From: Natrinema salifodinae
GTDB lineage: Archaea > Halobacteriota > Halobacteria > Halobacteriales > Natrialbaceae
NCBI RefSeq assembly: GCF_900110455.1
Contig: NZ_FOIS01000002.1
Span: 682,001 to 746,000, forward strand
Reading direction: 5' to 3'
DNA: 64,000 nt
In this document: one piece after another, positions 250 through 12,238 of the stretch
Numbering within the stretch: position 1 is the stretch's first letter
How the letters are laid out: the number at the start of each line of letters is the position of its first letter
The notes under the pieces: model-generated
What the model saw: only the letters and a program-made list of their open reading frames with translations
What the model was told of the DNA's origin: nothing
Database searches by the model: none
Made by a program: the position numbers and the translations under genes

Positions 250-1973
250 CACCCACCACCTCCGGTCGCTGCGGCGCCTTCAGCGCCCTCGCCGCTGTCG
301 CTCTCCGGATCGATGGCGTCGCGGATCCCGTCGCCGAGGGCGTTAAACGCCGTCACGACGAGCACGACCAGGACGCCGGGGAGGGTCGCGATGTGCCAGG
401 AGGACGTCGCGATGAACGCCTGGCCCTCGTTGACCGCGCGGCCCCATTCGGGCGTCGGCGCCTGAATGCCGTACCCGAGGAAGGACAGCGCCGCCACGCC
501 GATAATGACGCCGCCGAGCGACAGCGACGCGTACACGAGCATGTAGCCGGCGATGTACGGCGACATGTGTTTTCGCATCGTCGCCGACGGACGCTGTCCG
601 TAGCTCCGCGCGGCGTCGACCCATTCCTGCTGTGCGATCTGAAGCGACGGGCCGCGGACCGCTCGCCAGAGGAACGGCCAGCCCGTCGCTGCGAAAATCA
701 AAGCCAAGAGTATGCCTCCGTCGTAGATCGTTGCGATCGGGTGGTTCGCTTCCATGAACAGCACCGAGAGTAGTAAGACGACCAAGAACCGCGGCATCGA
801 GATCACCGAGTCGCTGACGAGGACCGTCACCATGTCGAGCAGGCCCTTGTAGTAGGCGGTCATCAGCGCCAGTCCCGTGGCGGTCGCCGCCATGAGGCCC
901 GTCGCCAGAACGCCGATGACCAACGACGCGCGCGCGCCGTACGCGACGAAGGTAAACAGATCCTTGCCGTCCTGATTGGTCCCGAACGGCGCGAACCGAT
1001 CGAACTGGTCGTAGCTCAGCGGCCCGACGTTCTGCTCGCCGCCTTGCGACCGGGTCGCCATGTTCGCATCGCCGTGGGTGATCGTCTGGACACCGTCCTC
1101 GCCGTAGTACGTGATCTCGTGTTCGTACGGCGCGTAGAGGTTCGCTTCGGCCGTCACCGGACTGAGCGCCGGCGCCCAGATCGCCATCACGATGAACATG
1201 AAGACGACGACGATGCCGAACAGCCCCCAGTAGTGGGTTCGAAGTCGGTCGACGCTGTCGTCGCGGGGCGTCCAATCGGCCTCCCGGTAGTGCTCGCGGA
1301 AGACCTGATACCCCCTCCAGAACCAGCCGAGGAGGGCGAACGCGTAGATGTAGACGACCGCGACGCGGAGCGCCCAGGCCCACGCGGGTGAGAGTCCGAG
1401 GAAAGTCCCCTCCCAACTCCCGTCGGGCGTCTGGTAGCCCTGATTCGGGATCGTCTCCCGGCTCGTCAGCGTCTGCAACTGAGTGACCGTCTCCAACCGG
1501 CGGACGAGCCAGGCGACCGCGGCGTCGAAGACGCCACCGACCGGCGTCGCGGCCAACAGGACGGTGACGACCCCGAGCACCGCGGCGACGATCGCGTACT
1601 CGAGAACCGCGTCGCGCTGGCCGCGGGCGGAAATCCCGACCCGGTCGGTCAGCGACCAGGGGACGACCAGCCACTTGAGGACGACGGCGACCAGCGCGAG
1701 GATCGCGAGCCAGGTCGCTACGTACCCGGCCGTACTGACGACCGCGCCGCCTGGTCCCGTGAGCGCACCGGCGACCGCAGCGGGGATCGTCGTGATCGAC
1801 TCGATCCCGAGCCGGACGGTGTTGCCGAGCCGGAGGAGTCCGGCCGCCACCATCCGGACCTCGAGTGCGAGCAACACGAGGAGAACGGCCAGCCAGCGAA
1901 GTGCCGGCCGTGGTTGCGCAGCGATGCGTTCGCGAAGCGTCTTGTCGTCGAATTCGGCGTGACTCACACTCAT
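249..1973 (-). CDS. dppC: Dipeptide/oligopeptide ABC transporter permease, DppC type, with long N-terminal membrane extension
   Basis: Second inner permease of the peptide importer. The last ~330 residues form the BPD_transp_1 domain, with the EAA-loop region (EWVDAARSYGQRPSATMRKH) that contacts the ATPase. The protein is 574 residues, against roughly 300-370 for usual DppC proteins. The extra ~240 residues at the N-terminus contain several hydrophobic segments of membrane character, and the glycine-rich C-terminus is low complexity. I chose the ATG at 1973 (MSVSHAEFDD) because it sits just before the upstream permease stop and gives an acidic cytoplasmic start; longer readings run into the neighbouring gene in another frame. 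The family call is solid; the role of the extension is unknown. Confidence 0.9.
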   Translation of the reverse strand: MSVSHAEFDDKTLRERIAAQPRPALRWLAVLLVLLALEVRMVAAGLLRLGNTVRLGIESITTIPAAVAGALTGPGGAVVSTAGYVATWLAILALVAVVLKWLVVPWSLTDRVGISARGQRDAVLEYAIVAAVLGVVTVLLAATPVGGVFDAAVAWLVRRLETVTQLQTLTSRETIPNQGYQTPDGSWEGTFLGLSPAWAWALRVAVVYIYAFALLGWFWRGYQVFREHYREADWTPRDDSVDRLRTHYWGLFGIVVVFMFIVMAIWAPALSPVTAEANLYAPYEHEITYYGEDGVQTITHGDANMATRSQGGEQNVGPLSYDQFDRFAPFGTNQDGKDLFTFVAYGARASLVIGVLATGLMAATATGLALMTAYYKGLLDMVTVLVSDSVISMPRFLVVLLLSVLFMEANHPIATIYDGGILLALIFAATGWPFLWRAVRGPSLQIAQQEWVDAARSYGQRPSATMRKHMSPYIAGYMLVYASLSLGGVIIGVAALSFLGYGIQAPTPEWGRAVNEGQAFIATSSWHIATLPGVLVVLVVTAFNALGDGIRDAIDPESDSGEGAEGAAATGGGG

Positions 1974-3037
1974 CCTGAATACCCCACACGTGGATCGAGG
2001 ACCGTATATAGCAGGTCCTGAACGATGTTGATCGAGACGATTAGGAGGATAAAGACGAACATCAGCGATCCCACGAGCGGGAGATCGCCCTGGGTGGCCG
2101 CCTGGAAGAACAGGTAACCGAGCCCGTTGATCCCGAAGATCGTCTCGACGATGACCGAGCCGCCGATCAGGATGAAGGCCTCGTTCGTGATGATCGGGAC
2201 CAGCGGAATCAACGCGTTGCGGAACACGTGTTTCCAGACGATGGCGCGCTCGGAGACCCCTTTCGCGCGGGCGGTCTCGACGTAATTGGAGTTGATCGTC
2301 TCGAGGACGGCGGTGCGGCCGATCCGCATCTCGGTCCCCATCGACGCCGATCCGAGTACGAGCGCCGCCGGGAGGACCTGCTTGATCGACGCCAGGAGTC
2401 CGACCGGCGAGAAGTAGATGCCGACCGGGACGCTCAACAGCCCCAGCGAGACCCACTCCGTTATCGCGAGGAAGTCAAGCGGCGGCTGGCCGACGAGACT
2501 GTTGATCTCCACCCCGAACGTGTGCCAATCGAATCCGAAGAATAACCGCTCGGACTGGCGGAGCACGGCGAGCAACATCACCGCCAACCAGAAGTTCGGC
2601 ATGGCTCGCCAGACGATGCCGCCGAAGGAAGCGGTGTAGTCGCTCCAGGTGTTGGGATTGAGGCCGGCGTAGAACCCCAACGGAATCCCGATGAACAGCG
2701 CGATCAACACCGACCAGAAGCCGAGCCAGAGCGTCCGGGGTGCGTAGGTCCCGATCATGGAGTAGACGCTCCGACCGTTGTTGATCACCCACGACTGCCC
2801 CAGGTTCAGCGTGATCAGGTCTCTCATGAACGAGAGGTATTGGTTCCAGAGCGGCTGGTTGAGTCCGAGCCGCTCTTCGATGCGTGCTTGTTGGGCGGGG
2901 CCCGCGTCGGGGCCCAGAATCGCGGCCACGGGATCGATCGGCCCCATCCGAACGATGATAAACGTGGCCGTCATTCCGATGAACACGACCGGAATTGCGA
3001 GGACGAGCCGTCGGAGGAAGTACCGCCAGCGGCTCAC
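1970..3037 (-). CDS. dppB: Dipeptide/oligopeptide ABC transporter permease, DppB type
   Basis: First permease of the importer: 355 residues, starting MSRWRYFLRRLVLAIPVVF with the first membrane helix immediately following, as is normal for DppB. The cytoplasmic loop YVETARAKGVSERAIVWKH is the EAA motif that docks on the ATPase, and the C-terminus LLYTVLDPRVGYSG is the typical DppB ending. The start codon is GTG. The stop overlaps the ATG of the DppC-type gene by 4 bases. The gene lies 159 nt downstream of the binding protein gene, far enough for differential expression of the binding protein, though nothing in the gap is recognisable as a processing site. Confidence 0.95.
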   Translation of the reverse strand: MSRWRYFLRRLVLAIPVVFIGMTATFIIVRMGPIDPVAAILGPDAGPAQQARIEERLGLNQPLWNQYLSFMRDLITLNLGQSWVINNGRSVYSMIGTYAPRTLWLGFWSVLIALFIGIPLGFYAGLNPNTWSDYTASFGGIVWRAMPNFWLAVMLLAVLRQSERLFFGFDWHTFGVEINSLVGQPPLDFLAITEWVSLGLLSVPVGIYFSPVGLLASIKQVLPAALVLGSASMGTEMRIGRTAVLETINSNYVETARAKGVSERAIVWKHVFRNALIPLVPIITNEAFILIGGSVIVETIFGINGLGYLFFQAATQGDLPLVGSLMFVFILLIVSINIVQDLLYTVLDPRVGYSG

Positions 3038-3196: not shown

Positions 3197-4960
3197 CTAT
3201 TCGTCCAGCGTGACGTTGTTGAACACCTGCTGGTACTCGCCCATCGCACCGAACGGCTCGACGTCGACGTGGTCGTAGTAGAACTGCTCTTTGAGGTCGT
3301 GGAACATCGGGATCATGACCGCGTCCTCCCAGATGGCCTCCTCCATCTCGCGGTAGGCCTCGGCGCGAGTGTCCTCCGCCTCCGGATCGGGATTCGCGAC
3401 GACCGTGTCCCAGGCGCTCTGGGCCTTCTGTGCGGCGTCGGAGTTCACGTCGTCCCAGTCGAGGTAGTAGCCGTTGGTCTCCTCGGGCATCCGTGCGGTG
3501 TCCGTATTCGCCGGTTCGAAGCCGAACATCCCGTAGCCGGGGTCCGGCCAGCTCCAGGTCCAGCCCAGCGTGTAGGCTTCGAGGTCGCCGTTCTCGCCGC
3601 GCTCCTGTAGCGCCGCGAACGGCGCCGATTCGAGGTCGACCTCGATGCCGGTCCCGGCGAGCTTGTCCCGGATGTTCCGGCCGATCTCCTGGTAGGTGTC
3701 ACCCTCGTAGGTCGTGATGGTGAGCTCGTAGGGGTTATCCTCGGTGTAGCCGTCGGCCTCGAGCACCTCCCGAGCGGCGTCGCGATCGTTCTCGTTCGCG
3801 CTGTAGGGGTAGTCCTCGACGAACGAGTCGTAGTCACCCGGGAAGACGCCTGGCGGAAGGAACGTCCACGCCTCCTGGCCGCGGCCCTTCATGATCGTGT
3901 CGACGATTTCCGCGTGGTTGGTCACGTAGGCGACCGCCTGGCGAACGGACTGCGGCGTGTTCGCCGCGTTGAACGCGAGATAGCGGGTGCTGAGTTCGGG
4001 GACGCCGACGTAATCGACGGTCTCGCCGTTCTCGTCGAACGGCCCGTAGGTCCCGATCTGCCGGTTGCGGTCGTCGGTCTCGGCGTCGACTTTGTTCGGG
4101 TCGTATCGGGACGTCGGCAGCGTGAAGAAGTCGAGGCTCTTCTCCATCGCGGCGGTGACGCGTGCATCGTCGCCTTCGAGGATCTGCCAGTTGACGGCGT
4201 CGACGTTCGCCGTGCTCCCGTGGTAGTCGTCGTATTTGGTGACTCGCACGTCGGCGTCGGGGTCCCAGGAGTCGAACTCGAAGGGGCCGGTTCCCACCAG
4301 GCCCTCGTTTGCAAACTCGTTGTGATCGAGTTCGCCCTCGTAGCCCTCGATATCGCCGACGATACCCTCGGGGATCACCGAAAGCGCGTCGTACGCGAGG
4401 ATCTGCAACGCGTCGGGTGCCGGCGTCGCGAGCGTGATCTCCAGCGTGCTGTCGTCGACGGCCTCGACGGCGAGCGAGTCGGGGACGATCCGTCCCTCGT
4501 CGTCGAACTCCGCCTCGACGTCGAGGAACGAGGGATCGCCGACGATGAAGTTCGACCGTTCGCTGTTCTCGGACTCGGCGAGCCGTCGGAACGTGTAGAC
4601 GAAGTCGTCGGCCGTCAGCGAGTCGCCGTTGTGGAATTCGGCGTCTTTCAGGTGGAACGTGTACGTCAGGTTGTCGTCCGAGATCTCCACCTCCTCGGCG
4701 AGTTTGTTCTCGACCCTGGTCTCCCCGTTGGGGTAGTGGGTCAACGGCTCGCAGACCTGCTTGATGACTTGTCCCGAGGCGGTGTCCGTCGACTGGATCG
4801 GGTCCAGCGACGACATCGTCGCGTTACGGAGGTTCAGTTCGTTGTCGCTGCCTTCGTCGTCCGGCTCTCCGGTGAGACAGCCCGCCACTGTCGCCACCGC
4901 GGCACCGGAACCGGTCGCTTTGAGAAACGTTCGTCGAGAGAGACTATTTTCGTTCGACAT
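3197..4960 (-). CDS. dppA: Tat-exported lipoprotein, peptide-type ABC solute-binding protein (SBP_bac_5)
   Basis: Extracytoplasmic binding protein of the minus-strand importer, about 587 residues. The N-terminus has a twin-arginine signal (SRRTFLKATGSG) followed by a lipobox ending in AGC, so it should be folded in the cytoplasm, exported by Tat and lipid-anchored. The mature part follows the canonical family order: N-terminal lobe (DPIQSTDTASGQ, then TYTFHLKDAEFHNGDSLTAD), the GTGPFEFDSW segment, then the C-terminal lobe (NIRDKLAGTGIEVDLESAPF and GWTWSWPDPGYGMF). The ATG at 4960 was chosen because the signal peptide follows directly and a TATA element lies about 30 bases upstream; ATG 4972 is an alternative. 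It is a useful standard for the permuted homologue at 5441-7090. Confidence 0.95.
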   Translation of the reverse strand: MSNENSLSRRTFLKATGSGAAVATVAGCLTGEPDDEGSDNELNLRNATMSSLDPIQSTDTASGQVIKQVCEPLTHYPNGETRVENKLAEEVEISDDNLTYTFHLKDAEFHNGDSLTADDFVYTFRRLAESENSERSNFIVGDPSFLDVEAEFDDEGRIVPDSLAVEAVDDSTLEITLATPAPDALQILAYDALSVIPEGIVGDIEGYEGELDHNEFANEGLVGTGPFEFDSWDPDADVRVTKYDDYHGSTANVDAVNWQILEGDDARVTAAMEKSLDFFTLPTSRYDPNKVDAETDDRNRQIGTYGPFDENGETVDYVGVPELSTRYLAFNAANTPQSVRQAVAYVTNHAEIVDTIMKGRGQEAWTFLPPGVFPGDYDSFVEDYPYSANENDRDAAREVLEADGYTEDNPYELTITTYEGDTYQEIGRNIRDKLAGTGIEVDLESAPFAALQERGENGDLEAYTLGWTWSWPDPGYGMFGFEPANTDTARMPEETNGYYLDWDDVNSDAAQKAQSAWDTVVANPDPEAEDTRAEAYREMEEAIWEDAVMIPMFHDLKEQFYYDHVDVEPFGAMGEYQQVFNNVTLDE

Positions 4961-5440: not shown

Positions 5441-7090
5441 ATGGCAGGGAATAGCGTCGGGCCGGGAGAAGGCGGGCGTCTGGACCGGCGTTCGCTCCTG
5501 CAACGAGCGGGGGCGGCCGTGGTCGCCGGAGCGGCAGGTTGTATCACGCCCAACACCGAAGTCGAAGCCGACGGCCCCGCCGAGGAGTTGCTTCAAAAGG
5601 GGTTCGACGCCGCGGGGATCGAACCGCCGTTCGAGACGACGATCGCGATCACCAGCGACGACGAGCGGATGCAGTTCGCCCAACTGTTCGAGACCGCGCT
5701 CGAGAACACGGGCTTTTTCGACGTCTCGATCGACCAACGGGAGTTCGGCTCGTATCTGGACCTCCTGACCGCGGCGGCCGACGAGGGCGAAAACGCCATG
5801 TTCGTCATGAGCTGGACCGGGGGCTGGGATCCCGACGACTACGTCAACATGCTGTTTCACTCGGACAATCACGCGCCCGACGGATTCAACGTCAACCACT
5901 ACGCGAACGACACCGTCGACGAGTACATCGATGCGGCCCTCGAGGAGACCTCCCGCGACGAGCGCGTCGGCATCTATCGGGACCTCCAGGAAGAACTGGT
6001 TGCCGACGCCCCGGCGGCGTTCGTTCGCTTTCGCGAATCAGCCCACGTCTGGAACGACGACGTCGTCGCCGACTGGCGGACGTACCCGCTCCGGCCGGGA
6101 TCGTACTACGCGGTGTACGCGCCCTGGGCCGGCGTCTCCACCGATATCGCGGACGGCGACGAATTCGTCGGCGATCTCGACAGCGACGTCACGGCCTACG
6201 ACCCGGTCCGGATGAACGATACCGCGTCCAGCCAGGCGACGGCCCTCGTCTACGAGCAACTCGTCGGGATCGATTTCGACGGCGAGGTCCGTCCGATGCT
6301 CGCCGACGAGTGGGAGCGTCTCGACGCGACGACCTACCGATTCTCCCTTCGCGAGGGCGTCCGGTTTCACAACGGCGAGGAACTCACCGCCGCTCACGTC
6401 GAGGGATCACTCGAACGCTACGAGGGAACACCACGAGAGACCGACGTCTACGACTGGTACGAGAGCGCCACGATCGTCGACGACTACACCGTCGATATCG
6501 AGTGCTGGCGGGAGTACGGGCCCCTCGAACAGTCGCTGTTCAACGTCCCGATCGTCCCGATGGCGGCGATCGACGGCGACCACGACCTCGAGTCGGCGCC
6601 GATCGGAACCGGTCCCTATCGGTTCGTCGAGCATCGAAGCGCCGATCACTGGCGGCTCGAGCGGTTCGACGATCACTGGTTCCAGGGCGACGGATCGGTC
6701 CCGGAAACGCCGCCCATCGAGACCGTCACGCTCGAGATCGTTACCGAGCGGGCGTCTCGGCAGGGCGCGCTCGAGGCCGGGAACGTTCACTGTAGTCCCG
6801 ACGTCCCGGCGGCGAGCCTGGCTAGCTTCGAGCGCGACGACGCGTACGGCGTCGATCGGCGCGTCGGCGGCGGGTTCGACGCGGTGATCTATCCGCTGTA
6901 CTGCGACCCGTTCACCGAGCGAGCGGTCCGGCGCGGATGTACCATGTTGCTCCCGCGCGAGCAAATCCTCGAAACCGTATACGACGGCATCGGCGAAGTC
7001 GCCTATACGCCGATTTCACCGCTACTCGAGGGGTATACTGACGAATCGTTCCGAGAATCGATCGCCGAGACGTACGTTCGGCCGAACTGA
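5441..7090 (+). CDS. Circularly permuted Tat lipoprotein, peptide-type ABC solute-binding protein (SBP_bac_5)
   Basis: Presumed binding protein of the plus-strand peptide importer, 549 residues. A Tat-like signal (DRRSLLQRAGAAVV) ends in a lipobox (AAGC, Cys34). The mature domain order is reversed from the family norm. Residues ~46-215 match the usual C-terminal lobe (AEELLQKGFDAAGIE, SWTGGWDPDDYVNMLFHSD, then YRDLQEELVADAPAAFVRF). Residues ~245-549 match the usual N-terminal lobe (TAYDPVRMNDTASSQA, TTYRFSLREGVRFHNGEEL, IGTGPYRFVEH, TPISPLLEGY). The last residues (IAETYVRPN) are where a normal protein would run into AEELL. The old termini are joined through residues ~216-244. It stays one open frame, 13 bases before the permease gene. 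The family call is firm; the permutation is read by eye from motif order. Confidence 0.85.
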   Translation: MAGNSVGPGEGGRLDRRSLLQRAGAAVVAGAAGCITPNTEVEADGPAEELLQKGFDAAGIEPPFETTIAITSDDERMQFAQLFETALENTGFFDVSIDQREFGSYLDLLTAAADEGENAMFVMSWTGGWDPDDYVNMLFHSDNHAPDGFNVNHYANDTVDEYIDAALEETSRDERVGIYRDLQEELVADAPAAFVRFRESAHVWNDDVVADWRTYPLRPGSYYAVYAPWAGVSTDIADGDEFVGDLDSDVTAYDPVRMNDTASSQATALVYEQLVGIDFDGEVRPMLADEWERLDATTYRFSLREGVRFHNGEELTAAHVEGSLERYEGTPRETDVYDWYESATIVDDYTVDIECWREYGPLEQSLFNVPIVPMAAIDGDHDLESAPIGTGPYRFVEHRSADHWRLERFDDHWFQGDGSVPETPPIETVTLEIVTERASRQGALEAGNVHCSPDVPAASLASFERDDAYGVDRRVGGGFDAVIYPLYCDPFTERAVRRGCTMLLPREQILETVYDGIGEVAYTPISPLLEGYTDESFRESIAETYVRPN

Positions 7091-7103
7091 TACCACGACC
7101 ACG

Positions 7104-8051
7104 ATGTCGCTCGGACGATACATCTGTAGACGAGTGTTGATCGCGGTCCCGGTCCTGCTCGGGGTCACGGCGCTTTCGTTCTCGTTCGTTCACCTACTCC
7201 CCGGCGACGCCGTCGACGCGATCGTCGGGTACCAGGACGTCAGCCCCGCGGTCGAGGCGTCGGTCCGGGCCGACTACCACCTCGACCGGCCGGTCTGGCA
7301 GCAGTACCTGCTGTGGCTGCGCGACGCGCTCGCCCTCGAATTCGGTCGCTCGCCGATCACCGGACGCAGCGTCACCGGGACGATCGGGCGACGGCTCCCG
7401 GCGACGCTCGCCCTCGGCGGAGCCGCCTGGCTGTGCGCGTTCGCGATCGGGATTCCGGCGGGAGTCGTCGCCGCGGTCAGGCGGGGCGAACCTGCCGACG
7501 AACTCAGCCGACTCGCCGCGCTGGCCGGGATCGCGACGCCGAACTTCTGGCTCGGCCTGGTCCTGTTGCTGATCTTCGGCGTCCGGCTGGGCTGGGTCCG
7601 GGTCATCCCGCCGGACGCGCCGCTCGCGAGCCTCGCGATGGCGAAGTTCATGCTTCTGCCGACGATCACGCTGGGGACGGCCTCGGCGGCGCTGGTTACC
7701 CGGCTGCTCCGGTCGTCGATGCTGCGCGAACTCGAGCGGCCGTACGTCCGGGCCGCCCGCGCGAAGGGGCTGCGCGAGCGGACGGTGATCGCGAAACACG
7801 CCCTGCGAAACGCCTTGCTGCCGGTCGTCACCGTTGCCGGCCTCCAGCTGGCGTTCCTGGTCGACGGCGCCGTCGTCGTCGAGCAGGTCTTCTCCTGGCC
7901 GGGAATGGGGCGACTGCTGGTCGAATCGATCCTCCGGCGGGACTATCCGATCCTCCAGGCGAGCGTCCTGCTCGTTGCAGTCGGGATCGTCCTCGCGAAC
8001 CTGCTCGTCGATATCGTCTACGCGGTGTTGGATCCACGAATTCGATACTGA
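7104..8051 (+). CDS. dppB: Peptide ABC transporter permease, DppB type
   Basis: Membrane permease of the plus-strand peptide importer, 315 residues, starting MSLGRYICRRVLIAVPVLLG. It shows about six hydrophobic segments, the EAA loop PYVRAARAKGLRERTVIAKH near residues 213-232 and the typical end IVYAVLDPRIRY. It follows the permuted binding protein by 13 bases and precedes the DppC-type gene by 2 bases, so the operon is tightly packed. It is a paralogue of the permease at 1970-3037 but slightly shorter, and its loop sequences differ enough to indicate an old duplication or separate acquisition. Confidence 0.94.
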   Translation: MSLGRYICRRVLIAVPVLLGVTALSFSFVHLLPGDAVDAIVGYQDVSPAVEASVRADYHLDRPVWQQYLLWLRDALALEFGRSPITGRSVTGTIGRRLPATLALGGAAWLCAFAIGIPAGVVAAVRRGEPADELSRLAALAGIATPNFWLGLVLLLIFGVRLGWVRVIPPDAPLASLAMAKFMLLPTITLGTASAALVTRLLRSSMLRELERPYVRAARAKGLRERTVIAKHALRNALLPVVTVAGLQLAFLVDGAVVVEQVFSWPGMGRLLVESILRRDYPILQASVLLVAVGIVLANLLVDIVYAVLDPRIRY

Positions 8052-8053
8052 CT

Positions 8054-9178
8054 ATGAACGACAGCGATCGAGACGCCGACTGCGAGCCCGCCCCCGACCG
8101 CGATCACGACGCCACCGAGCGCACCGCCGATCGCGGCCGAATTCGCATCGTCGGTTTCGAGGAAGCCGTCGCCGAGCGGCGCGACCGCGACGCGCGAGCG
8201 CAGTCGGCGGCTCCGGGGTCGGGCCCGGCCGCACCGAGGTCGGCCGACCGACCCGGCGGCCGAGCGAGTCGCCTCGCAGTCGCCTGGCGGCGGTTCCGTC
8301 GGAACCGAACGGCGATGGCCGGGCTGGGGATCATCGTCGTCATGGCGGTGCTCGCCGTCTTCGCGCGGCCGATCGAGGTGTCGACGACGGGCTACACGAT
8401 CACGCTCCAGCCGGTCTCGCTGGCCCCGTACGATCCCGCCGAGCCGTTCGTCGGCTCGCCGAACGCGCCGCCCTCGCAGGCCCACCCCTTCGGCACGGAC
8501 TGGGCGGGCCGCGATCAGCTCTCCCGGGTGCTCGTCGGCGGGCGCTACACCCTGAGCGTCGGCCTCCTCGCGGTCGTGCTGGCGCTTGGCGTCGGCGTGC
8601 CCCTCGGCGCGATCGCGGGCTACTTCGGCGGCTGGGTCGACGAACTCGTCATGCGCGTCGTCGACGTGCTCTACGCCTTCCCGTTTCTGGTGCTGGCGAT
8701 TGCGGTCGTCGCGATCCTCGGCCAGGGGTTCTGGAAGCTCGTGGCCGCGCTGGTCGTCACCGGCTGGCTCGGCTACGCCAGGCTGTTGCGCGGCGAGGTG
8801 CTCTCTGTCCGGGAGCGCGAGTACGTCACGGCCGCGAAAGCGCTGGGCGTCCCCGATCGGACGATCATCCGCAGGCACGTCGTGCCCAACGCCGTCGCGC
8901 CCGTGATCGTCCAGGCGACGCTCAACGTCGGAACGGTCGTCCTCACGGCCGCGGCGCTTGGCTTCCTCGGTCTCGGACTCGAACCCGGCAGCGCCGAGTG
9001 GGGCGCGATGCTCTCGCGGGGCCGGGAGTCGCTCGTCCAGGGTCACTGGCACGTCACGCTCTTCCCGGGGCTCGCGATCTTCCTGTTCGTGCTGGCGATC
9101 AACCTGGTCGGCGACGGCATTAACGGCGCGCTCGATCCCCGTCGGAACGTGAACGACGAACGGAGGCGGCTGCGCTGA
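8054..9178 (+). CDS. dppC: Peptide ABC transporter permease, DppC type, with charged N-terminal extension
   Basis: Second permease of the plus-strand importer, 374 residues from the ATG at 8054. The first ~85 residues are hydrophilic and rich in Asp, Arg and Ala (for example DRDHDATERTADRGR) and precede the first membrane helix (MAGLGIIVVMAVLAVF). The permease core follows, with HPFGTDWAGRDQLSRVLVGG, typical of DppC periplasmic loops, and the EAA loop YVTAAKALGVPDRTIIRRH. The stop overlaps the ATG of the next ATPase gene (TGATG). A longer reading upstream is in frame but would overlap the permease gene, so I rejected it. Confidence 0.93.
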   Translation: MNDSDRDADCEPAPDRDHDATERTADRGRIRIVGFEEAVAERRDRDARAQSAAPGSGPAAPRSADRPGGRASRLAVAWRRFRRNRTAMAGLGIIVVMAVLAVFARPIEVSTTGYTITLQPVSLAPYDPAEPFVGSPNAPPSQAHPFGTDWAGRDQLSRVLVGGRYTLSVGLLAVVLALGVGVPLGAIAGYFGGWVDELVMRVVDVLYAFPFLVLAIAVVAILGQGFWKLVAALVVTGWLGYARLLRGEVLSVREREYVTAAKALGVPDRTIIRRHVVPNAVAPVIVQATLNVGTVVLTAAALGFLGLGLEPGSAEWGAMLSRGRESLVQGHWHVTLFPGLAIFLFVLAINLVGDGINGALDPRRNVNDERRRLR

Positions 9179-10311
9179 TGGCGCTGCTCGAAGTCGAGGA
9201 CCTCGTCGTCCAGTTCTACACCGACGACGGCGTCGTCCGGGCCGTCGACGGGGTCAGCTACGAGATCCGGGCCGGCGAGGCGGTCGGCCTGGTCGGCGAG
9301 AGCGGGGCTGGCAAGAGCGTCGCCAGCCTGGCGCTGTTGGACCTGATCGAGCGACCGGGCGAGATCGTCGGCGGCGAAATCCGCTTCCGGGGGCGCGATA
9401 TCCTCGCGTGCTCGGCCGAGGACCTCCGCGAGCTCCGGGGCGACGAGATCGCGATGGTGTTCCAGGACGCCGCGGCGGCGCTCAACCCAGTCTACACCGT
9501 CGGCGAGCAGATCGCCGAAGCGATCCGCGCCCACGAGGTCGTCACCGACGACGAGGCCCGCGAGCGGGCGATCGACCTCATGGCCCGCGTCGACGTGCCG
9601 GATCCGGCCGCGCGGTACTCCGACTACCCCCACGAGTTCTCCGGCGGGATGCAACAGCGGGCCGTCATCGCGATGGCCCTGGCCTGCGACCCCGCCCTGC
9701 TCGTCTGCGACGAGCCGACAACCGGGCTCGACGTCACCGTCCAGGCCGGGATCCTCGAACTGCTCGACGACCTCGCGCGCGAATCCGACACCGCGATCCA
9801 ACTGGTCACCCACGACCTCGGCGTCGTCGCGGAGCTGTGCGATCGCGTCCTCGTGCAGTACGCCGGCGAGATCGTCGAGCGCGCGCCGGTCGACGAGCTG
9901 TACTACGACCCCAAACACCCCTACACCGTCGGGCTGCTGGCGTCGACTCCCCGACTCGGCGACGACCGCGACCGCCTGGCGACCGTCCCCGGGACGCCGC
10001 CTTCGCTCGTCGATCCGCCGACCGGCTGCCGGTTCCACCCGCGGTGTCCGTACGCCGAAGACGTCTGCGCCAGGCGGCACCCGCCGCTGGTCGAGGCAGA
10101 TGCGGGGGGCGAGCCGGAAGCGGGAGCGGGGACTCCGATTCCGGCCGACGGCGACCCCGAGACCCACGTCGCCGCCTGCCTCGAGTACACCGGCGACCTC
10201 AAGGAGGGCCTGGACTACGAGGTGCGGGTACGGGGCGGCCCCGCGACCGATCGGCGGGTCGACGACGACGGGACCGACGCCGACCACGACCAGGCGAGTG
10301 ATTTCGAATGA
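9178..10311 (+). CDS. dppD: Peptide ABC transporter ATP-binding protein, DppD type
   Basis: One of two ATPase subunits powering the plus-strand importer, 377 residues. Walker A GESGAGKS is at about residues 40-47, the ABC signature is FSGGMQQRAVIAMAL, Walker B is VCDEPTTGLD and the switch histidine is in VTHDLG. The C-terminal oligopeptide-transporter domain carries a four-cysteine pattern ([15 protein letters not shown] and a later AAC); in some Opp ATPases such cysteines hold an iron-sulfur cluster, but here that is only an inference. It overlaps its neighbours by one base upstream and four downstream. Confidence 0.95.
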   Translation: MALLEVEDLVVQFYTDDGVVRAVDGVSYEIRAGEAVGLVGESGAGKSVASLALLDLIERPGEIVGGEIRFRGRDILACSAEDLRELRGDEIAMVFQDAAAALNPVYTVGEQIAEAIRAHEVVTDDEARERAIDLMARVDVPDPAARYSDYPHEFSGGMQQRAVIAMALACDPALLVCDEPTTGLDVTVQAGILELLDDLARESDTAIQLVTHDLGVVAELCDRVLVQYAGEIVERAPVDELYYDPKHPYTVGLLASTPRLGDDRDRLATVPGTPPSLVDPPTGCRFHPRCPYAEDVCARRHPPLVEADAGGEPEAGAGTPIPADGDPETHVAACLEYTGDLKEGLDYEVRVRGGPATDRRVDDDGTDADHDQASDFE

Positions 10312-11684
10312 CGGGGACAGAGACTACGGCCGACGACAACGAGCCGCTGCTCCGAGCCGACGGCCTTGAGAAGCACTACACCACGGCCGACGGCCTCCTC
10401 GACCGCCTGCTCGGCCGCGGCGAGACGGTCCGGGCCGTCGACGGCGTCGACCTCGAGCTCCGGCCCGGCGAGACGCTCGGCCTGGTCGGCGAGAGCGGCT
10501 GCGGCAAGACCACGCTCGGGCGCGCGCTCGTTCGCCTGGTCGAGCCCACCGGCGGCTCGGTGACCTACCGCGGTACCGAGATCACCGACCGCTCGCGCTC
10601 GGAGCTGCGGGCGCTGCGGACCAAGCTGCAGTACGTCTTCCAGAACCCTGACGCCAGCCTGGACCCACAGCTGACGGTCGGCGAAATCGTCGGCGAAGCG
10701 CTCGCGGTCCACGACGTCGTTCCGGAAGCCCGTCGCGACGAACGCGTTCGAGAACTGCTGGAGACGGTCGGGCTGCGGGCCGCGCACGCGGACCGCTACC
10801 CGCACGCGTTCTCGGGCGGCCAGCGCCAGCGGATCGCCATCGCCCGCGCGCTCGCGGTCGAGCCCGAAGTCGTCGTCTGCGACGAACCCGTCGCCGCGCT
10901 CGACGTTTCGGTGCAGGCTCGGATCCTCAACCTCCTGTCGGATCTCCAGGACGAGTTCGACCTCTCCTATCTGTTCATCACTCACGACCTCTCGGTCGTC
11001 GAGCACGTCGCTGACCGCGTGGCCGTGATGTACCTCGGCGAACTCGTCGAGACCGGGACCGCCGCTGAGGTCTTCGACGCCCCCTCCCATCCCTACACCG
11101 AGGCGCTGCTGTCGGCGATTCCTGAACCCGATCCGCGCTGGGACGGCGACCGAATCGTCCTTGAGGGGACCGTTCCCTCGCCGACCGACCCGCCGTCGGG
11201 CTGTCGGTTCCACCCGCGCTGTCCGAAGGTCGTCCCGCCCGCCGACTACGACATCGAGACCGACGCCTTCCGCGGCGTGCTAGCGCTGCGGACCCGCCTG
11301 GCCGAAGCGGTTGCCGCCGGCGACGACGGACTCGAGGCGCTGCTGGCGCGGTCCGACGATCGCGAGACCGCGGCCGTCCCGACGGCGCTTCGGGAGACCT
11401 ACGACATTCCCGACCGACTCGGCGATCCGGACGCCGACGCCGTCCTCGGGGACGCGCTCGACGCGATCGCATCTGGCGACGGAGACGGCGCGCGGCAGCG
11501 CCTGGCCGCGGAATTCGAGACTCCTTGCGAGACGATCGACCCGGAGCTGGCACCGGGAACGGCCGCCCATCCGATCGCTTGCCATCGGTTCGACGAGCGA
11601 TTCGCGGGCGACGAATCGAGTGACGGACCGGATCACGGTGACGGCGACGGACGCAGTCTGCACTATCGGGAACGCCACCGATGA
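10308..11684 (+). CDS. dppF: Peptide ABC transporter ATP-binding protein, DppF type
   Basis: Second ATPase of the importer, 458 residues, so about 120 longer than most DppF proteins. Walker [10 protein letters not shown] is at residues 61-69; signature [15 protein letters not shown], Walker [13 protein letters not shown] and switch HD in FITHDLS are intact. The extra length is in the C-terminal domain, between the cysteine pair of [11 protein letters not shown] and a later HPIACHRFD, and is mostly acidic helix-like sequence ([30 protein letters not shown]). Similar insertions are common in haloarchaeal DppF-type ATPases. It overlaps the next gene by four bases. Confidence 0.94.
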
Positions 11685-12238
11685 AACGAATTTACGACTC
11701 CGGTGCGGTCGAGCGGTCGGACGACGATCCGTTTGCACCCGGGACGCGCACGCGCGGGAACGATGTTGGTGATGGCGGCAGCGACGGCCGCGACCGGCGT
11801 GCGATCGACTGGGCGGCGTTCAGCCACGCGTTCACGCCGACGGCGCTGCGCTACCGGGCGATCGACGTCAGCGTCTCGACCGATAAGTCCCGGTACGAGC
11901 CCGGCGAACCGGTCGCGATCACCGTCGAGTTCCGTAACCGACTCCCGTTTCCGATTCGCATCCGCACCGACTCGCCGAACCGCTGGACCTGGGCCGTCGA
12001 CGGCCTCCGCCAGGCGTCGCGGGTCCCGAAAGCGGTTCCGGAGCGGCCCGCCGCGTTCGACTTCGGTCGGAGCGAGCGCAAGCGCTTCCGTCGGCGGTGG
12101 CCCCAGCGGATCCGCGTCACCGACGACGAATGGGTGCCCGTCGATCCCGGCCGCTATACGATCGAGGTCGGACTCGCTCGCGACGACGCGAGCGACCGGG
12201 GGCTCGTCGACAGTACCGAGATCGAGATCATCGACTGA
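11681..12238 (+). CDS. Small cytoplasmic protein with a predicted beta-sandwich (BsuPI-like) domain
   Basis: A 185-residue protein encoded by the last gene of the plus-strand peptide transporter operon, coupled to dppF by an ATGA overlap. It has no signal peptide or membrane helix. Residues ~60-185 resemble an immunoglobulin-like sandwich: DVSVSTDKSRYEPGEPVAIT, VEFRNRLPFPIRIRTDSPNR and a closing VDPGRYTIEVGLA. This pattern is seen in intracellular proteinase inhibitor BsuPI-like and related domains. The first ~50 residues are charged and probably disordered. Its link to peptide uptake is only positional. Confidence 0.75.
   Translation: MKRIYDSGAVERSDDDPFAPGTRTRGNDVGDGGSDGRDRRAIDWAAFSHAFTPTALRYRAIDVSVSTDKSRYEPGEPVAITVEFRNRLPFPIRIRTDSPNRWTWAVDGLRQASRVPKAVPERPAAFDFGRSERKRFRRRWPQRIRVTDDEWVPVDPGRYTIEVGLARDDASDRGLVDSTEIEIID

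Follow-up and report, generated by a model that had tools for sequence, protein, structure and literature searches.

The SBP_bac_5 family (type II, cluster C) of substrate-binding proteins (SBPs) includes DppA, OppA, AppA, NikA, and YejA. Natural circular permutations have mostly been found as single old events. The closest described case is Tp0684 (MglB-2) of Treponema pallidum, a circularly permuted glucose-binding protein classified as "Type Ic / Cluster Bc." It is the tethered binding protein of an ABC importer, naturally permuted and still able to close on its ligand, and an advantage from relocating the membrane anchor has already been raised for it (PMC4990184). In Escherichia coli YejA, lobe 1 comprises residues 1–286 and 540–579 and lobe 2 comprises residues 287–539, with a 25-residue surface-loop insertion at 343–368; in other proteins of the YejA-type fold, the N- and C-termini lie near each other (PMC10924461). 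Permuted family 5 or cluster C binding proteins are apparently undescribed so far, and we found no report of one in open-access full text, a body of literature outside which most subscription papers lie.

The window analyzed here is a 64,000-nt stretch of the Natrinema salifodinae genome (contig NZ_FOIS01000002.1, positions 682,001–746,000). At 5441–7090 (+), it holds a single open frame of 549 aa, in whose sequence a twin-arginine signal with R16 and R17 and a lipobox cysteine, Cys34, can be read. In a profile search, PF00496 hits this frame twice and in reversed order: profile positions 271–365 (at C2:687597–687869, genome coordinates) lie ahead of positions 1–260 (at C2:688284–689054), so that every part of the profile is represented (1–260 and 271–365 of 368 positions). 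Pfam likewise reports two stretches in the 549-aa protein, the best being residues 282–536 against profile positions 1–258, and the PF00496 score is 179.8 bits against a curated cut-off of 32.4 (E = 1e-52). We also used a model of 504 positions in canonical order, for which permuted sequences had been rotated by computer and combined with normal relatives. Residues 45–227 match model positions 309–497 and residues 240–545 match positions 1–304, and the two blocks jointly span the model almost fully; residues are numbered here on the 549-aa frame, whereas the ORF used in this search had a 13-residue upstream extension that shifts its own numbering. The chain order is not the collinear one of canonical SBP_bac_5 topology. 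Because the block order is reversed, the protein is a permuted variant rather than a canonical PF00496 or cluster C member; ORF 5441–7090 is a circular permutation. The original prediction had proposed reversed SBP_bac_5 parts behind an intact Tat/lipobox signal, a fold that lacks no segment, and a single open frame that leads a complete importer operon, and it is borne out on all of these points. The features of the locus are listed below in window coordinates, with the basis for each in parentheses.

5441..5542, + strand: Tat signal and lipobox, M1–C34, at the new N-terminus (sequence; conservation of R16, R17, and C34)
5573..6121, + strand: "C-block," residues 45–227, natively C-terminal; second stretch of lobe 2, up to about residue 197, and the strands back to lobe 1 (model 309–497; PF00496 271–365; lobe mapping)
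6122..6157, + strand: joint, residues 228–239; native C-tail (WAGVSTD) fused to the native mature N-terminus (IADGD) (comparison with normal-order relatives)
6158..7087, + strand: "N-block," residues 240–549; lobe 1 (to about 477), hinge, initial part of lobe 2, and new C-terminus (model 1–304; PF00496 1–260; lobe mapping)
7104..8051, + strand: DppB-type permease (PF00528, PF19300; downstream in permuted and normal-order loci)
8054..9178, + strand: DppC-type permease (PF00528, PF12911; locus comparison)
9178..10311, + strand: DppD-type ATPase (PF00005, PF08352; locus comparison)
10308..11684, + strand: DppF-type ATPase (PF00005, PF08352; locus comparison)
11681..12238, + strand: orf6, 185 aa, last gene of the operon (36–67% identity and the same place in nearly all compared loci; no Pfam match)
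3197–4960, − strand: canonical-order SBP5 gene (own permease genes at 1970–3037 and 249–about 1955, − strand)

Comparison with normal-order relatives locates both the joint and the cut. Their C-terminus reads ...YPLDTGEFTAIYAPWADTYTTMGGG and their mature N-terminus ...GGPELVATLGADVKTYDP; put together, these two give the joint of the permuted protein, YPLRPGSYYAVYAPWAGVSTDIADGDEFVGDLDSDVTAYDP. Likewise, the C-terminal ...IYAPWADTYTT and the start GGPELVATLG... of normal-order relatives correspond to what lies on either side of this joint. The new termini fall between ...EEYLGY and DPEKAATLL of the relatives, with nothing substantial missing. The native termini are indeed joined, as had been proposed, but by about 12 residues (228–239) rather than by a linker of about 30 (216–244). 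Such a short joint is possible because the native termini are close together in the fold.

Mapping onto YejA assigns residues 478–549 plus about 46–197 to lobe 2 and a contiguous stretch, about 198–477, to lobe 1. The break therefore falls inside lobe 2, adjoining the position of the YejA 343–368 surface-loop insertion, in a region that tolerates change. A cut at this place does not swap the lobes but opens lobe 2, whose two parts now stand at opposite ends of the chain. Of the earlier picture of a C-terminal lobe (about 46–215) followed by an N-terminal lobe (about 245–549), the reversed order thus stands, whereas the identification of the blocks as lobes does not. On the sequence mapping, a lobe1-lobe2-lobe1 topology would have become lobe2-lobe1-lobe2, and the lipid anchor would sit on lobe 2. 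An AlphaFold2 model computed from three sequences had a mean pLDDT of 34, and the bilobate three-domain fold is predicted by homology.

The surroundings of the gene indicate where this rearrangement occurred. In a comparison of loci, the operon order SBP-DppB-DppC-DppD-DppF-orf6 is common to permuted and normal-order loci, with orf6 absent, displaced, or unrecognized at a few of them. The transporter products carry the expected Pfam domains, and the SBP gene stands beside two permeases and two oligo_HPY ATPases, as in a Dpp/Opp-type importer. Relatives of the window gene in other haloarchaeal families have the normal order. Those that share its operon and gene order (L072–L076, L036, and L078) are about 38–51% identical to the permuted protein in the best local match, but their blocks stand in the canonical order. 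Since normal-order relatives head the same SBP-DppB-C-D-F-orf6 operon, the window gene was permuted in place. The canonical SBP5 gene at 3197–4960 (−), for which a normal order had correctly been predicted, runs divergently from the permuted operon and is only distantly related to the window SBP. It was not seen upstream of the Natrinema ejinorense ortholog, and an alignment with fragments of this canonical SBP was too poor and was set aside.

We put the probability at roughly 0.87 that the gene encodes a lipid-anchored binding protein of the SBP_bac_5 family (type II/cluster C), serving a Dpp/Opp-type importer, and that it was permuted where it stands, in an operon conserved among haloarchaea, with a predicted cluster C fold and flytrap action. 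The product is most likely an ordinary Venus-flytrap SBP in a permuted topology. A tandem duplication followed by partial deletion may have produced it: the native C- and N-termini, near each other on lobe 1, would have been joined by the short linker, the chain opened at the lobe 2 surface region just ahead of the DPEKAxxLL helix, and a signal peptide with lipobox placed at the new start. This route, already suggested in the original prediction, fits the junction, but we found no duplication intermediate, and when the junctions were checked for direct repeats that the rearrangement might have left, only short GC-rich matches turned up, none of them convincing. With both hinge crossings retained, the permuted SBP should still fold and close on its ligand as a Venus flytrap, dock, and hand the ligand to DppBC, while the membrane tether at Cys34 would emerge from lobe 2 rather than lobe 1. 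As to the ligand, NCBIfam equivalogs score far under their cut-offs (DppA, 78 bits against 1005). The dipeptide-contact residues of E. coli DppA are R383 and D436 (PMC12136057), and both the alignment and the YejA mapping give them no clear counterpart in the window protein. By score and by residues, then, it does not qualify as a DppA (dipeptide) equivalog.

Permuted proteins differ in where the chain is cut. Class A, to which the window protein belongs, is cut ahead of the DPEKAxxLL helix, class C after this helix, and class B after the hairpin that follows it. A possible fourth class, D, cut inside lobe 1, is a single gene from one MAG (L051 2807–4810, −), whose chain opens midway through the N-block and closes with the first 55 model positions of that block; no second full-length example was found in 195 genomes. 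On an SBP tree of the A/C/D family, the distribution of permuted and normal order takes five changes (bootstrap range 4–6), and uniting A and C, the two main cut types in this operon, in a single clade is rejected (p-AU 3e-48). An independent DppBCDF tree gives four changes and again rejects A plus C (p-AU 5e-126), the taxon samples of the trees having been drawn by similarity searches. Class B forms a separate clade in both N-block and C-block trees. Because A and C are rejected as one clade in two trees and B stands apart, at least three origins (A, C, and B) are the simplest account, short of favoring repeated reversions. A single origin for all permuted classes in this operon was considered and was rejected by p-AU on the SBP and transporter trees.

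Class A may itself be composite. Its members in Natrialbaceae and in the f4 genomes G275 and G211 could reflect two permutations at nearly the same cut, or one permutation plus a reversion in the normal-order clade, and we give this somewhat less than an even chance. The SBP tree rejects class A as one clade at a borderline level (p-AU 0.049), and the transporter tree nests G275 and G211 among normal-order loci (SH-aLRT 98). However, the transporter tree does not reject a single class A clade (p-AU 0.155), the C-block tree joins class A, if weakly, and the cut is nearly identical in the two groups.

Returning to the reading of a working, permuted SBP, the gene has been conserved and constrained. 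Among the other 28 genomes of the genus, 24 carry a full-length, collinear ortholog in one frame, with 65–72% identity. The permuted order is also found in N. ejinorense (68%; very likely the same as G028, so that named records may recur in the genome set), in Natrialba swarupiae (50%), and in a number of other genera of this family. Thus, the relatives in other haloarchaea that the original prediction had suggested looking for exist, and the permuted chain order is conserved across species, as expected of a natural circularly permuted SBP. The G025 ortholog is broken into two ORFs at the block joint (L055/L176), which could be a frameshift, a sequencing error, or a real two-chain form. In close pairs, dN/dS is about 0.09–0.34 over the whole protein and low in both blocks, and R16, R17, and C34 are invariant among eight orthologs. 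The gene is under purifying selection.

These data bear on three other explanations. First, the protein could be permuted yet no longer a working importer subunit, but a relic or a receptor or decoy. The substrate residues of DppA are indeed without clear conservation, and an intact or detectable copy is missing in a few genomes of the genus. Nonetheless, we regard this as improbable, since dN/dS is far under 1 in both blocks, the signal and lipobox are invariant, and the gene heads a complete, conserved operon. Second, two SBP paralogs might each have contributed a half, and the blocks do differ in their identity to the normal-order G051 relative (43% for N against 27% for C). This is more improbable still: whether the tree is built from the N-block or from the C-block, the window gene falls in the same operon-specific clade, with the same relatives, and the operon is syntenic with normal-order loci. 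Both halves are derived from one gene family, and the separate block trees speak against a chimera of two paralogs. Third, an assembly or annotation artefact, in which a collinear gene was scrambled in this genome only, has next to no chance of being true, since the same one-frame order in independent assemblies of 24 other congeneric species and of other genera excludes misassembly, the outcome that the original prediction had named as a possible refutation; no support for it was found, the two-ORF copy of G025, broken at the linker, being recorded beside it.

In place of an unusual gene, permuted SBPs appear as a sizeable group. Permuted type II binding proteins had been called very unusual, but 92 of 112 classified haloarchaeal SBP5 ORFs are permuted, in a set of fetched loci biased toward permuted ones by the similarity searches, and others occur in Alphaproteobacteria and probably in methanogens. 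The genome of the window has 3 permuted genes among about nine SBP5 genes; two more permuted class B SBP5 genes, L005 and L008, lie close together on the same contig (C2:361862–365647). At E below 1e-60, a class B profile has matches in about half of the 195 genomes sampled from the order, and most of these matches are full-length and collinear. Reversed PF00496 hits occur in G466, G399, and G407, which belong to one family (f21) of the same phylum outside the order and, to judge from the phylum, are methanogens. In Alphaproteobacteria, permuted SBP5 lie within importer operons; the class B examples are L150, L151, L152, and L154, two of which adjoin M28 peptidase and hydantoinase or M20 genes. 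Two scans of viral contigs found no relatives.

It is conceivable, although on present evidence rather doubtful, that cluster C SBPs are prone to permutation, with at least three in-place events (A, C, and B, plus D as a fourth known from a single MAG gene) having given rise to unrecognized but widespread "inside-out" SBPs in archaea and bacteria, favored in lipoprotein-anchored lineages by the move of the tether from lobe 1 to lobe 2. Any advantage from anchor relocation, an idea raised for Tp0684, is hypothetical, and two alphaproteobacterial class B proteins, those of Nitratireductor and Maritalea, show no lipobox, which speaks against anchor relocation as a general cause.

The occurrence of permuted proteins in this family may be relevant for several questions. 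First, one and the same operon, its permease and ATPase partners unchanged, starts with a permuted SBP in some genomes and with an unpermuted relative in others. The origin of the permutation, its effects on hinge motion and docking, and the relevance of the anchor move are therefore directly testable. Second, standard domain databases and homology models do not capture the topology of a sizeable class of genes annotated as "ABC transporter substrate-binding protein." Finally, evolution has repeatedly used cut sites in lobe 2, which is useful for biosensor design.

It is useful to contrast the window protein with its known counterparts. Like other cluster C SBPs, it is a lipoprotein SBP heading a dpp-type operon, and both of its blocks match PF00496 as well as members of known structure, such as 5u4o and AppA (1xoc). 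However, in those solved relatives that are among the best listed matches, the N-block match comes early in the chain, which is the normal order, and none of them is permuted. The class B proteins of haloarchaea, Alphaproteobacteria, and probable methanogens resemble the window protein in being permuted within lobe 2, but they are cut one helix further on, after GYTWDDDGRLHY, and form a separate clade. By comparison, Tp0684 has a type I/cluster B fold, a different cut site, and a need for an extra hinge crossing. The window protein does not belong to that fold, since it matches PF00496, a cluster C family; it is cut in lobe 2 and probably keeps its two hinge crossings.
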